Origin: a virus
Strand: one strand, 5' to 3'
Virus record (IMG/VR): IMGVR_UViG_3300027911_000006
Span: 1 to 43,475 of that record
Length of the DNA stretch: 43,475 bases
Part shown: positions 26,484-43,376 of the stretch, piece by piece
Numbering within the stretch: position 1 is the stretch's first letter
How the letters are laid out: the number at the start of each line of letters is the position of its first letter
Program-made: the position numbers and the translations under genes
The notes under the pieces: generated by a model
Database searches by the model: none
What the model was told of the DNA's origin: nothing
Seen by the model: only the letters and a program-made list of their open reading frames with translations

Positions 26484-26923
26484 TGTTTTCAACAATATTA
26501 GGATTTTTTACAGGCGGGACAGTCAATGTTTTCACTTATATCAAACTTGGACTCATTGCTATTGCTATTTGCATTTCTGGATATATTGGCTATAGTTATG
26601 AACATTCTAAGTTTGCTGCATATAAGATTGAGGTTGAAGAACTTGGAAAAGAACAAGAAGCAAAGAATCAACAAATCGTCAAAGAACAAATAGCAACAAC
26701 AGAGAGGATTACAAATGATTACAAGAATCAGCTTGCTCGCATTCATTCTTACTATGGCGGGTTGCACGACACCAGTAGCAGTAACTTGTCCAGCCCCAGC
26801 AACACCCTCGTCAGAGTTAATGGCTACACCACAGACCCTGTATTTGCTGAACAGTGTGCCAACACCACTGCCCAGCTCGTCTCTCTCCAAGAGTGGGTCA
26901 GGGAGCAAGTAGGAATTAAATAG
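26483..26923 (+). CDS. Rz-like inner-membrane spanin
   Basis: A protein of 146 residues with one N-terminal membrane span (about 18-38), then a periplasmic coiled coil (EVEELGKEQEAKNQQIVKEQ and on) and a C-terminal segment with two cysteines. This is the i-spanin layout. The companion o-spanin is encoded in another frame inside its 3' half (26715-26912). Rz and Rz1 span the periplasm and fuse inner and outer membranes in the last lysis step, so the host is Gram-negative. Confidence 0.85.
   Translation: MFSTILGFFTGGTVNVFTYIKLGLIAIAICISGYIGYSYEHSKFAAYKIEVEELGKEQEAKNQQIVKEQIATTERITNDYKNQLARIHSYYGGLHDTSSSNLSSPSNTLVRVNGYTTDPVFAEQCANTTAQLVSLQEWVREQVGIK
26715..26912 (+). CDS. Rz1-like outer-membrane lipoprotein spanin, embedded in Rz
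   Basis: A protein of 65 residues wholly inside the Rz gene in a different frame. It has a signal peptide MITRISLLAFILTMAG with a lipobox-type cysteine at 17 (LTMAGC) and a mature part rich in proline and serine, as in lambda Rz1. An embedded Rz1 is a known arrangement in lambda-like lysis cassettes. The start ATG 26715 has the weak upstream site AGAGGATT. Both the lipobox and the context support a real gene. Confidence 0.82.
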   Translation: MITRISLLAFILTMAGCTTPVAVTCPAPATPSSELMATPQTLYLLNSVPTPLPSSSLSKSGSGSK

Positions 26924-26925
26924 TC

Positions 26926-27012
26926 AAGCCGACAAGAGGGTATGCCCAACATAGGGATTTTTCGGCTTTCCCCCTATGACCAACGAAATGGTAGACGAGG
27001 GGCTGCCCCCTC
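26926..27012. terminator. Hairpins in the convergent gap between spanin and endolysin
   Basis: AAGCCGA (26926-26932) can pair with TCGGCTT (26962-26968); ATAGGG (26951-26956) with CCCTAT (26972-26977); and GAGGGG (26997-27002) with CCCCTC (27007-27012). The first two overlap and exclude each other. No long T-tract is present on either strand, so these may be weak or factor-assisted stops where the late plus-strand and the minus-strand transcripts meet. Confidence 0.4.
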
Positions 27013-27520
27013 AACTCATTTCTATTGCTCTAATACGCACCAATTCAACTCTTTTACCCCATCCATCGCCATATTTAGGCCATAGCTTTAATCTTTGCAA
27101 GAATACTAGTCTTTTATCAGAGAATTCATTTATTAAAGTTACTGGATTGATTTGACTTATTGCAGATACAGTATTGTTCCCAATAGCACCATCAACAGGA
27201 ACGCCAACAATCTCTTGTATCCAACGGGATGAATTACCGATACCAGAATTAATGGAAGCATCAAACATAGCGTAATCAAGTCCCGAAGGAAGAGCATCTC
27301 CGTGTATGGCATCCCAATACCTTTTCTTATAAAGTGGCTTAACATCTTCAACAGTTAGGTTCTTCATATCCTCTACGGTTACAGGATGACCTACATATTC
27401 TTCCCATACTGCTTGTGTACATCCGTGATTAGTAGGCCCACCTGTATCACCATCTAGGTCAGCATATCCACCTTCGGATTGAATTACATAATTAAATGAT
27501 TTATCCCAATTCCTGTTCAC
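27011..27520 (-). CDS. Endolysin, GH108 muramidase
   Basis: A protein of 169 residues, the usual length. The active-site region FNYVIQSEGGYADLDGDTGGPTNHG (about 9-33) has the catalytic Glu at 16 in SEGGY and the GGPTNHG(C/I)T loop of the GH108 family (zliS-type N-acetylmuramidases). The C-terminal part (VDGAIGNNTVSAI) matches the associated peptidoglycan-binding fold. There is no signal peptide, so it would need the holin to reach the wall. It lies on the opposite strand from holin and spanins and ends 87 bases from them, an uncommon split of the lysis genes. Confidence 0.88.
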   Translation of the reverse strand: MNRNWDKSFNYVIQSEGGYADLDGDTGGPTNHGCTQAVWEEYVGHPVTVEDMKNLTVEDVKPLYKKRYWDAIHGDALPSGLDYAMFDASINSGIGNSSRWIQEIVGVPVDGAIGNNTVSAISQINPVTLINEFSDKRLVFLQRLKLWPKYGDGWGKRVELVRIRAIEMS

Positions 27521-34565: not shown

Positions 34566-34769
34566 ATGAGTCAAGATAGGTTCTATGAGCCACTGTTATA
34601 TGTTGTAAAAAAACACGGTTCCCTCAATGCCTCGGCAAAAGCCCTAGGGATTAGCCAACAACGCATATTCCATTGGAATAAGGCTAAAGTCATTCCAGAT
34701 GAGTGGAAGATTATTTTGCATAAGAAGTATGCCGTGCCGTATAAAAAGTTTTTCGAACAGCTTGAATAA
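34566..34769 (+). CDS. Cro/YdaS-like helix-turn-helix regulator
   Basis: A protein of 67 residues. VKKHGSLNASAKALGISQQR (14-33) is a helix-turn-helix with the recognition helix GISQQRIFHWNKAKV, followed by IPDEWKIILHKKY, matching the Cro/YdaS-type layout 'IP-e---i'. The TAGGAG ribosome site is close. As the only small repressor-like gene at the divergent promoters, it is the prime candidate to bind the dyad elements at 35341 and 43206 or the iterons at 35195. Confidence 0.8.
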   Translation: MSQDRFYEPLLYVVKKHGSLNASAKALGISQQRIFHWNKAKVIPDEWKIILHKKYAVPYKKFFEQLE

Positions 34770-34804
34770 TTTTTAGAAAGTGTGTTACCATTCCTTCATG
34801 ACTG

Positions 34805-34920
34805 TGGAAAGTCATGTTGGTATCGGTAAATAGGCTCCATTCACATGGGCTGGAAAATCATAGTAGCCGATACTATTACCAAACTTTCCACGCTCCAGTC
34901 CAGTTGAATGGGGCTTTTTT
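34805..34920 (+). promoter_or_regulatory. Switch-like leader with alternative hairpins and terminator
   Basis: Terminator form: 34833-34853 can pair with 34895-34914 over about 20 bp with a few mismatches and G-U pairs, followed by six Ts (34915-34920). Alternative form: TGGAAAGT (34805-34812) pairs with ACTTTCCA (34883-34890), TTGGTA (34817-34822) with TACCAA (34877-34882) and TATCGG (34821-34826) with CCGATA (34867-34872). The alternative stem traps one side of the terminator inside its loop, so the two forms interlock or exclude each other, as in attenuators or riboswitch platforms. Confidence 0.6.
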
Positions 34921-34934
34921 CATTCCTTGGGCGG

Positions 34935-35114
34935 GTCTTAGATGGACGGCTAAAAACACCAGCGTCTAAGATACAAGTGCTACTGGGGGATAGTTGATGT
35001 AATAGCACACAAATCGGTGGCGAAGCTAGTGCCGATTCAACGAACGACTGGCGGGTGACGAGAAACTCAACTGAGTAGACCGTTTGAAGGGACATCTAGG
35101 AGGCTAGGTGTCTC
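34935..35114 (+). ncRNA. Candidate structured RNA, chain of hairpins
   Basis: No open frame of size explains this stretch. Stems visible in order: 34935-34944 with 34963-34972 (10 bp), GTGCTA 34977-34982 with TAGCAC 35003-35008, AATCGGTG 35012-35019 with 35030-35037 (8 bp with G-U), CGAACG 35041-35046 with CGTTTG 35081-35086, ACTCA 35065-35069 with TGAGT 35072-35076, and an 11-bp stem 35089-35099 / 35104-35114 closing a GAGG loop. Local GC content looks higher than in flanks. It could be a non-coding RNA, a recognition site for replication initiation, or a ribozyme; no known RNA family is recognised. Confidence 0.5.
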
Positions 35115-35175
35115 GAAATCTAACCAAGTATCCCCGTAACAATAAAGTAAATTAATATCAAAAAGACAGCCTATT

Positions 35176-35190
35176 GCCTAAAATTTAGGC
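35176..35190. other. Inverted repeat next to the iterons
   Basis: GCCTAAA (35176-35182) and TTTAGGC (35184-35190) form a perfect dyad with a single central base, 5 bases before the first iteron. It is a candidate binding site for a dimeric protein or a cruciform. Confidence 0.55.
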
Positions 35191-35194
35191 ACGG

Positions 35195-35249
35195 ATTGTA
35201 AAGTTAAAAATCGGGATTGTAAAGTTATTGGGCGTTCATTGTAAAGTTA
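35195..35249. repeat. Three 12-bp iterons, candidate replication origin
   Basis: ATTGTAAAGTTA occurs exactly at 35195-35206, 35216-35227 and 35238-35249, with start-to-start distances of 21 and 22 bases, about two helical turns. Same-face direct repeats are typical of iterons bound by an initiator. A strongly AT-rich stretch (about 35250-35345), suitable for unwinding, follows, and the helicase and prim-pol genes lie just downstream. An operator array for the Cro-like protein is the alternative. Confidence 0.7.
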
Positions 35250-35340
35250 TGACTTATTAAAGAGTCCTTAAATAGGTTAAAGCCTTATTAATGAATCATT
35301 TAACATACTTTTTTCTTATTAACATTGTTGTGTGTTAATA

Positions 35341-35368
35341 CTGTATATCCATACATTAGGGAAAGTCC
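35341..35368 (+). promoter_or_regulatory. Dyad-containing control element before the helicase gene
   Basis: CTGTATATCCATACATTAGG followed by GAAAGTCC. The first part has the dyad TGTAT-4-ATACA (35342-35355). The whole 28 bases recur with two differences, inverted, at 43206-43233 upstream of the minus-strand genes. Each copy points toward a gene block, so it is likely a shared operator or part of a shared early promoter. Confidence 0.65.
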
Positions 35369-35417
35369 TAGTGCAAATAGTAATGAACACTAACTTTTAT
35401 TTTGAGATAATAAAAGA

Positions 35418-36866
35418 ATGAAGAACAATTTAAGGCAATACCAGGTCGATTCCATCAACGACCTTAGAAAATCTATTCTCAAAGGACACAAGCGCATAGT
35501 GTTGCAGCTCGCAACTGGCGGGGGAAAAACCACAATCGCTTCAGAAATGATAAGAAAAGCCAATGAAAAGGGTAAGAAATGTCTATTCTTGGCAGACCGT
35601 ATTGAATTAGTAGAACAAACAAGTAAAAGGTTGGATTATGAAGGTATTGAACACGGAATTATTATGGCGAATCATCCTCGCTATAAGCCTTATGCTATTA
35701 ACCAAGTATGCTCTCCACAAACACTGGCTAGGAGACCTACTCCTCCTGCCGATTTAGTCATTATTGACGAGTGCCATGTGGCTTATGGTATTCACCGTAA
35801 GATGATGGAAGCAATGCCTAATACAGTCTTTATTGGACTATCTGCCACTCCATTTACCAAAGGGCTTGGAAAGATGTATACGAACCTAGTGATAGGTGCT
35901 ACTACATCCAAACTGACAGACGAAGGTTATCTCGTCCCCGTCAAAGTCTTTGCTCCAAGTAAGCCAGACCTTTCCAAAATTCGCACTATCGCTGGAGATT
36001 ACGACGAAAAGGAGCTTTTCTCCCGTGTCAATAAACCAAAACTCGTCGCAGACATCGTAGATACTTGGATAAAACGTTCTGAGAATCGTCCAACAATCGG
36101 CTTCGCTGTCAATGTAATCCATAGTCAAGTTCTCTGTGAACAGTTTAAAGACAGAGGAATACGTGCAGCCCATATTGATTCATATATGCCTAAAGCAGAG
36201 CGTGAACAACTGGTAAAGGATTTTAAAGACGGATATGTTAAGGTTCTATTCAACGTAGGCATTCTTGATAAAGGGTTTGACTATCCTGAAGCATCATGTC
36301 TCATTATGGCACGACCTACTAAGAGTTTAATGGTGTATATACAACAAGCAGGGCGTGTGTTACGTACACACTCTAGCAAAGAAGACGCAATTATTCTAGA
36401 CCATGCAGGAAACACACAAGCTCATGGATTTGTAACCGATGATTTACCACAGGAATTAGATGATGGCACTAAAAGGAAGGTGGAAAGAACTGAAAAAGCA
36501 CAGGAAGAGAAAGGGAGGATATGCCCTTCGTGCGCTTTTGTCAGGAAAAAGCATGAGTATTCGTGCCCATGTTGCGGATTTGTTCCGAAAAAGAAAGATG
36601 CGGGCGTTGCTGTCCAAGAGGGCGACTTATTGGAGGTTACCAGGAAGAAGGTAACAATGGATGACAAACAAAGACTATACTCAGAATTACTTTATGTAGA
36701 AGTAGAAAAGGGATATAAGAGGGGATTTGCAGCACAAATGTATCGTAACAAGTGTGGAGTATGGCCTAAAGGATTAAATGACGTTCCTAGAATACCCTCA
36801 TTAGATACACTTAATTATATTAAATCACGCATGATTGCATTTAGACACGGAGCTAAACGGGCATGA
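35418..36866 (+). CDS. SF2 DEAH/RadD-like helicase
   Basis: A protein of 482 residues. Motif I LATGGGKTT (31-39), motif II DECH (117-120), motif III SATPF (142-146), motif VI YIQQAGRVLR (307-316). After the two RecA folds comes a zinc ribbon with C369, C372, C383 and C386 and then a helical tail. This layout matches RadD/YejH-type helicases and phage replicative or recombination helicases. It directly follows the candidate origin. It may open the origin or remodel branched DNA; a hexameric replicative helicase is not recognisable elsewhere, so it could be the main one. Confidence 0.85.
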   Translation: MKNNLRQYQVDSINDLRKSILKGHKRIVLQLATGGGKTTIASEMIRKANEKGKKCLFLADRIELVEQTSKRLDYEGIEHGIIMANHPRYKPYAINQVCSPQTLARRPTPPADLVIIDECHVAYGIHRKMMEAMPNTVFIGLSATPFTKGLGKMYTNLVIGATTSKLTDEGYLVPVKVFAPSKPDLSKIRTIAGDYDEKELFSRVNKPKLVADIVDTWIKRSENRPTIGFAVNVIHSQVLCEQFKDRGIRAAHIDSYMPKAEREQLVKDFKDGYVKVLFNVGILDKGFDYPEASCLIMARPTKSLMVYIQQAGRVLRTHSSKEDAIILDHAGNTQAHGFVTDDLPQELDDGTKRKVERTEKAQEEKGRICPSCAFVRKKHEYSCPCCGFVPKKKDAGVAVQEGDLLEVTRKKVTMDDKQRLYSELLYVEVEKGYKRGFAAQMYRNKCGVWPKGLNDVPRIPSLDTLNYIKSRMIAFRHGAKRA

Positions 36867-43233: not shown

Positions 43234-43376
43234 TGTTTACCCTATGTTGCCTATTTTTTAAGCAATATCAATTAGATGCGAAGCGGCCCGATAAAAACTA
43301 CTACAAAGATAGTTAAGACCTGCTAACAATAGAATAGAAAACAAGTAAGAGAAACATATAGAGAGAAAGCATATAG
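43234..43376. other. Non-coding region at the window end
   Basis: About 140 bases without a gene, continuing into 1-433 after circularisation. It is purine-rich at 43330-43376 (AGAATAGAAAACAAGTAAGA, CATATAGAGAGAAAGC). I see no clear structure beyond that. Confidence 0.5.

Follow-up and report, generated by a model that had tools for sequence, protein, structure and literature searches.

Several described RNA elements resemble, in parts of their behavior, the phage locus considered here. The put RNA of phage HK022 is approximately 70 nt long, consists of two simple hairpins and lies near early promoters, and GOLLD is found partly in phages. The EAR element of the Bacillales eps operons is, like the RNA described below, a pseudoknotted RNA inside long operons, but it belongs to other hosts, and the Rfam scan of the window (the whole stretch of DNA analyzed, a virus record of 43,475 bases from IMG/VR) gave no EAR match. 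The terminated leader of lambda pR′-tR′ (6S RNA) and the attenuators of plasmids and phages share with the present locus a promoter, a short transcript, a strong terminator, a regulated operon, and alternative pairing; in contrast to these systems, the leader here combines the interleaved helices A/A′ and C/C′ with a stem of 22–26 bp, and neither a Q-like factor nor a countertranscript was identified. GOLLD and ROOL are likewise conserved ornate RNAs of unexplained function; they are several times larger than the ~200-nt RNA dealt with here and form oligomers (structures in PMC12286853). The likeness to put is that of a phage early-operon RNA which lacks a terminator of its own and acts as RNA (PMC9378689), whereas the RNA here is larger, pseudoknotted, located behind a strong terminator, and followed by almost no intrinsic terminators. 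The likenesses to put, EAR, lambda pR′-tR′, and GOLLD are comparisons of behavior, not memberships. Membership is held in the Rfam family RF02932 (Betaproteobacteria-1 RNA): the window RNA exceeds the cutoff of this family at full model length and, unlike the family as described in Rfam, comes with a conserved terminated leader which often precedes the RNA.

Genes for terminase, portal, and head occupy the left part of the window, and its early genes diverge around ~34.3 kb. A sequence-only reading of this DNA had singled out a gap of some 650 bases before the helicase gene as exceptional, and by the list of open reading frames the gap at 34770–35417 (648 bases) is the largest in the window. 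It is bordered by the gene of a 67-aa helix-turn-helix (HTH) protein of a Cro/YdaS-like type (34566–34769, +; PHROG transcriptional regulators, 2.5e-4; Pfam YdaS and P22_Cro below cutoff) and by the DNA helicase gene (35418–36866, +; phrog_16, 1.9e-97; Pfam ResIII and Helicase_C), which is followed by a Prim-Pol gene. Proteins of 77 aa with YdaS/Cro matches occupy the equivalent position in 41 loci. The small HTH protein, standing just 5′ of the leader and the RNA, is by position only a candidate for the control of the leader switch (see below). In another, convergent gap of the window, 5′ of the endolysin gene, positions 26913–27017 (+) match Rfam RF02496 (Atu_At1, an sRNA of Rhizobiales) at 66.8 bits against a cutoff of 60, which is unexpected in this virus.

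In a scan of all Rfam families (E ≤ 1), the single match in the gap region was that of 34935–35056 (+) to RF02932 (109.4 bits, cutoff 49.4, E 6.5e-20, model positions 1–120). The conserved element extends about 80 nt beyond the Rfam model (~195–207 nt versus 120). Its full extent in the window is 34935–35130 (+), as delimited by the Rfam match, by our own model R1 over 34934–35144, and by covariation; the conserved stretch reaches ~35130, which is the end of the second copy of a locus-specific direct repeat. R1 scores the window RNA at 146.5 bits, the window being one of the seed sequences of this model.

A degenerate 40-base pattern of the RF02932 core was found in at least 119 viral contigs versus 7 of 84,980 prokaryote species genomes, all seven with beta-proteobacterial names, and a similarity search revealed the RNA in one named phage record, that of Acidovorax phage AP1. 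Hence, the Betaproteobacteria-1 RNA is a phage RNA, carried almost only by viruses of beta-proteobacteria. The similarity search yielded no match in plasmids. Of 300 genomes sampled in the order of Variovorax, 5 score above the RF02932 cutoff with the covariance model; one genome of this order (G292) harbors three RF02932-like copies, on the contigs L142, L149, and L150, one of them below the cutoff. The viral records typically carry one copy (29 of 30), the remaining record carrying two. No literature on RF02932 was found in the library searched; the pseudoknots or the phage context may already have been noted in the original description of the family, which is the main uncertainty on novelty.

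The region 34780–35130 folds at −116 kcal/mol (shuffles −97.2 ± 4.9; z −3.9), in line with the chain of hairpins read earlier from the sequence at 34935–35114, the larger part of which is now recognized as RF02932. Covariation was assessed in 50 aligned sequences (with an identity threshold of 85%, their effective number is 46). In these, mutual information picks out the helices P2, P3, P4, and P5 along with two pseudoknots, PK1 and PK2. Over 36 pairs in eight helices, 86.4% of the cells are paired versus 67.8% in shuffles, double-change cells amount to 363 versus 121, and the covariation score is 0.497 versus 0.190, with none of 500 shuffles as high on pairing, double changes, or covariation score. 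Sliding by 1–3 columns brings the score down to 0.115 or less, a control that leans in favor of the structure, since the latter was read from the same sequences as those tested.

Helix P1 (34936–34944/34963–34971) displays double changes in 7 of 7 pairs tested, with only 59% of its cells paired in this alignment. Its loop pairs with the loop of P2 in PK1 (34959–34962/34983–34986; 97.5% paired, with C-G/U-A/A-U/G-C exchanges), which lies outside the Rfam structure. P2 itself (34977–34982/35003–35008) is 95% paired, 4 of 4 pairs tested covarying, and its loop also pairs with the strand 3′ of P3 in PK2 (34994–34997/35037–35040, within 34993–35041; 90% paired, covariation in 4 of 4 pairs). P3 (35014–35017/35032–35035; 94.5% paired) is interleaved with P4 (35026–35030/35047–35051), both lying within 35013–35051; P4 is 100% paired, and one of its pairs is UA, CG, and AU in 19, 18, and 13 sequences, respectively. 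The 3′ domain comprises P5 (35057–35060/35081–35084; 81.6% paired) and P6 (35092–35098/35105–35111; 83.8% paired), both with covariation. Since P3 and P4 interleave, besides PK1 and PK2, the RNA has, as judged from the aligned sequences, three pseudoknots. The structure line of RF02932 in Rfam consists of three plain hairpins, the three pseudoknots being missing from it; these consensus hairpins are kept in the RNA family with compensatory changes. All these elements are given for the + strand, which is the RNA according to the excess, outside P1, of G-U cells (108) over A-C cells (22).

Overall, the long structured RNA envisaged by the sequence-only reading is borne out by strong covariation across the 50 sequences, including the compensatory changes in the stems whose absence had been named beforehand as a refutation. 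Several of the real helices are pseudoknots, which that reading could not list. The same evidence bears on the view that the gap merely combines an ordinary terminator with regulatory DNA, its similarity to an RNA being incidental, or else encodes a protein. Open frames of 51 and 84 aa do cross the gap, but the pseudoknots covary pair by pair and the score is double the Rfam cutoff, which makes this view hardly credible.

The RNA also contains a direct repeat, V1/V2, which is degenerate in the window (V1 ~35065–35077 in the P5 loop, V2 ~35118–35130 at the 3′ end, +). The repeat of 7–11 nt differs in sequence from phage to phage and is present twice in each RNA; across 71 loci, the mean shared word is 7.0 within a locus versus 4.3 between loci (at most 4.75 in 2000 permutations). 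The loci compared yielded no partner of V1/V2, whether as a further copy or as a clear complement. In one locus (L113, ~1640–1730, −), an insertion within the P5 loop harbors two DnaA-box-like TTATCCACA boxes.

The RNA is preceded by a second conserved element, the leader, which has no Rfam match in the window or at eight further loci. Its putative sigma-70 promoter in the window, TTGAAT-N18-TACCAT (34762–34791, +), was read from the sequence and is weak (8/12), the −10 box included; of 39 distinct leaders, 29 have a correctly placed −10-like box of at least 5/6, compared with a mean of 14 and a maximum of 25 in 1000 shuffles. The antiterminator-type helix A/A′ joins 34804–34812 (GTGGAAAGT) with its exact complement at 34883–34891 (ACTTTCCAC), and the intrinsic terminator C/C′ spans 34832–34920 (arms 34832–34855 and 34893–34915, duplex −34.6 kcal/mol, T6 at 34915–34920), both on the + strand; the terminator with alternative pairing proposed earlier for 34805–34920 is thus present. 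Of 49 loci, 71% have an A/A′ that outperforms shuffles at p < 0.05, and the window reaches p = 0.005. Helix B/B′ (34820–34826/34867–34873, +), read by eye and reaching into the loop of a small hairpin D, is not significant as a set (22% of loci; window p = 0.07). A/A′ and C/C′ occupy different bases and might coexist as a pseudoknot. The leader of the window also contains a possible upstream open frame of 11 codons (34799–34834), which is longer in L003 and not general elsewhere.

Leaders of unrelated sequence share a common order: the −10 box, A, B, C, hairpin D with B′ in its loop, A′, C′, the U-run ending just 5′ of the RNA, and, after a few more bases, the RNA itself. Of 67 distinct loci, 30, among them the window, have a strong C/C′ stem (duplex ≤ −28 kcal/mol with a U-run) ahead of the RNA; of 892 random positions in the same contigs, 3 have one. 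The attenuator-like architecture recurring in many loci with unrelated sequences agrees with the expression switch suspected before the RNA, and the leader behaves with the RNA as a cassette. In 37 of the 67 loci, often those where the RNA sits 7–35 nt after the primase gene, the leader was not detected; hence, it is not required. Locus-specific complementarity between the leader and the RNA was not significant when the RNA was taken as a whole (p 0.32); restricted to the core, it gave p 0.013, as one of four tests.

On the 3′ side of the RNA, the window displays a dyad, TTGCCTAAAATTTAGGCA (35174–35191), seen partly also in the relatives L129 and L140, followed by three iterons, ATTGTAAAGTTA, in exact 12-bp copies (starts 35195, 35216, and 35238, i.e., 35195–35249, +; spacing 21 and 22) and by AT-rich direct repeats (35253–35272/35284–35303), a possible unwinding element strongly conserved together with the iterons. 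The dyad, the iterons, and the AT-rich run had all been listed from the sequence and are where they were placed; the sharing of the dyad with another promoter is partial, its single copy elsewhere (43248–43265, −, near the window end) having three mismatches. The window contains no fourth exact copy of the iteron. On the − strand, the iterons include twice a promoter-like TTTACA-N17/18-TACAAT, a potential source of antisense transcription across the RNA.

The window has a group of helicase relatives, L129–L141 (71–97% identity), in which the leader and the RNA keep their layout despite heavy sequence change; because near-identical pairs occur among these contigs, fewer of them are independent. 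Iterons with the 21/22 bp spacing recur in 7 of 11 relatives (L129, L130, L131, L134, L136, L139, and L141), in some with one repeat degenerate by a base, and a very conserved AT-rich repeat stands behind them. Conservation of the iterons, on which the sequence-only reading had also staked its proposal, is therefore found in most relatives; they are missing in L133, L137, and L140, and L132 has a single copy. L137 possesses a leader of the window type, and model R1, run without filters, found the RNA nowhere in its 45.8-kb record; L133, with a helicase 90% identical to that of L137, carries the RNA. A second RNA class in the place of the RNA in L137 was considered and rejected (no R1 match, z +0.5 versus shuffles, unique in the viral collection). 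The patterns of L137, L133, and L140 indicate that the leader, the RNA, and the iteron block are separable and that some members can do without the RNA. The order of elements in the window had suggested one combined origin and switch; this finds no support in L140, which keeps the switch and the RNA without iterons, in L137, with the switch but neither RNA nor iterons, or in the several operon positions of the RNA across phages, that between scaffold and capsid genes included. The iteron and AT-rich block is rather a separate, exchangeable module and a candidate replication origin.

A participation of the RNA in DNA replication, as primer, activator, or controlling transcript at an origin to which the iterons also belong, appears improbable. 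The RNA does adjoin iterons in the window and in 7 relatives, often lies beside replication genes, and in L113 includes the two TTATCCACA boxes; the GC-skew minimum of the window is found at ~34 kb, but it coincides with the change of gene direction and hence cannot decide the origin role. At the same time, the RNA is present without iterons in L140 and L133 and with one iteron copy in L132, resides also between scaffold and capsid genes, and is missing from L137.

The genomic position of the RNA varies across phages: it is encountered after an HTH gene, after primase, or between scaffold and capsid genes, where the leader–RNA unit stands directly behind an ordinary terminator (L048, L065, L082, and L088). 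In nearly all loci, the RNA is on the same strand as the neighboring operon. A single downstream gene family served by the RNA was sought and rejected: the next gene belongs to no constant family, and its distance varies. HNH and endonuclease-VII genes are the commonest next genes but a small minority (around 10 of 67 loci); in L031, L034, L046, L048, L050, L060, L065, L074, and L105, the RNA 3′ end coincides with the start of an HNH gene, and these genes fall into two or more unrelated types. In one locus (L116:6417–7229), seven or eight tRNA genes are arrayed directly 3′ of the RNA.

The starts of unrelated nuclease genes at the RNA 3′ end, the joint occurrence of leader, RNA, and HNH gene between scaffold and capsid genes, and the recent gain or loss between L133 and L137 would all suit an RNA belonging to a selfish mobile unit with HNH homing endonucleases. 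Still, we deem such a unit improbable: most loci, among them the window, lack a nuclease there, no boundary of an insertion could be resolved, and homing genes often settle beside conserved sequences anyway.

The stretch from the RNA to the next gene contains a terminator-like hairpin in 4 of 67 loci and none in 63, so the RNA is co-transcribed with the next genes, and its action in trans would need processing. The RNA could instead act in cis on its own RNA polymerase, aiding transcription through a long operon by processive antitermination. The operon strand in nearly all loci, the location inside transcripts without a terminator of its own, the lack of a constant gene or distance, the phage-borne nature, and the precedent of put (PMC9378689) are consistent with this. 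However, only two strong intrinsic terminators were found on the + strand in 261 kb downstream (6 kb after each RNA), with no excess over the other strand; a put-like RNA would thus have little to overcome except Rho, which weakens this role, and the one strong terminator at hand precedes the RNA, out of reach of such an element. We therefore regard cis antitermination as rather unlikely. A trans-acting RNA is more likely, given that position, next gene, and distance vary, i.e., no single gene is served, and there is little to antiterminate; the absence of the RNA from a close relative (L137) also favors trans action.

Taken with the observed anatomy of the sequence, the fold and strand of the RNA, its association with phages, and the leader–terminator architecture, the reading we tentatively prefer, at somewhat less than even confidence, is that of two adjacent modules: an attenuator-controlled cassette making a trans-acting structured RNA and an independent origin-like block. 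A transcript would start from the sigma-70-type promoter at the end of the HTH gene, and its first ~130 nt would form an interleaved structure where A/A′, perhaps with B/B′, keeps the terminator arm C in a loop. Being made before C′, A/A′ would delay or permit formation of the strong terminator C/C′, and only the transcripts escaping it would yield the Betaproteobacteria-1 RNA and the operon behind. The RNA would then fold compactly with its three pseudoknots, be processed, and act in trans, presumably binding a conserved beta-proteobacterial host component through its invariant stretches GGUGGCGAAG and CGAA-G-CU-GCGGGU. The second module, i.e., the three iterons with the AT-rich repeats, may serve as a replication origin. 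Several points count against the cassette part: no processing site was identified, the leader is missing in 37 of 67 loci, the window promoter is weak, and there is no convincing locus-specific complementarity of leader and RNA.

As a broader proposal, possible if on the doubtful side, phages of beta-proteobacteria would carry an exchangeable two-RNA cassette, in which a pseudoknotted self-terminating leader controls a new class of host- or polymerase-directed RNA with three pseudoknots. An orphan RNA family gains its full extent, pseudoknots, strand, and home in beta-proteobacterial phages, along with a companion leader outside Rfam, and its function can be tested in a cultured carrier, Acidovorax phage AP1. 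If the RNA binds the host polymerase or ribosome, it would represent a new class of phage RNA effectors; action in cis would make it a new antitermination element.
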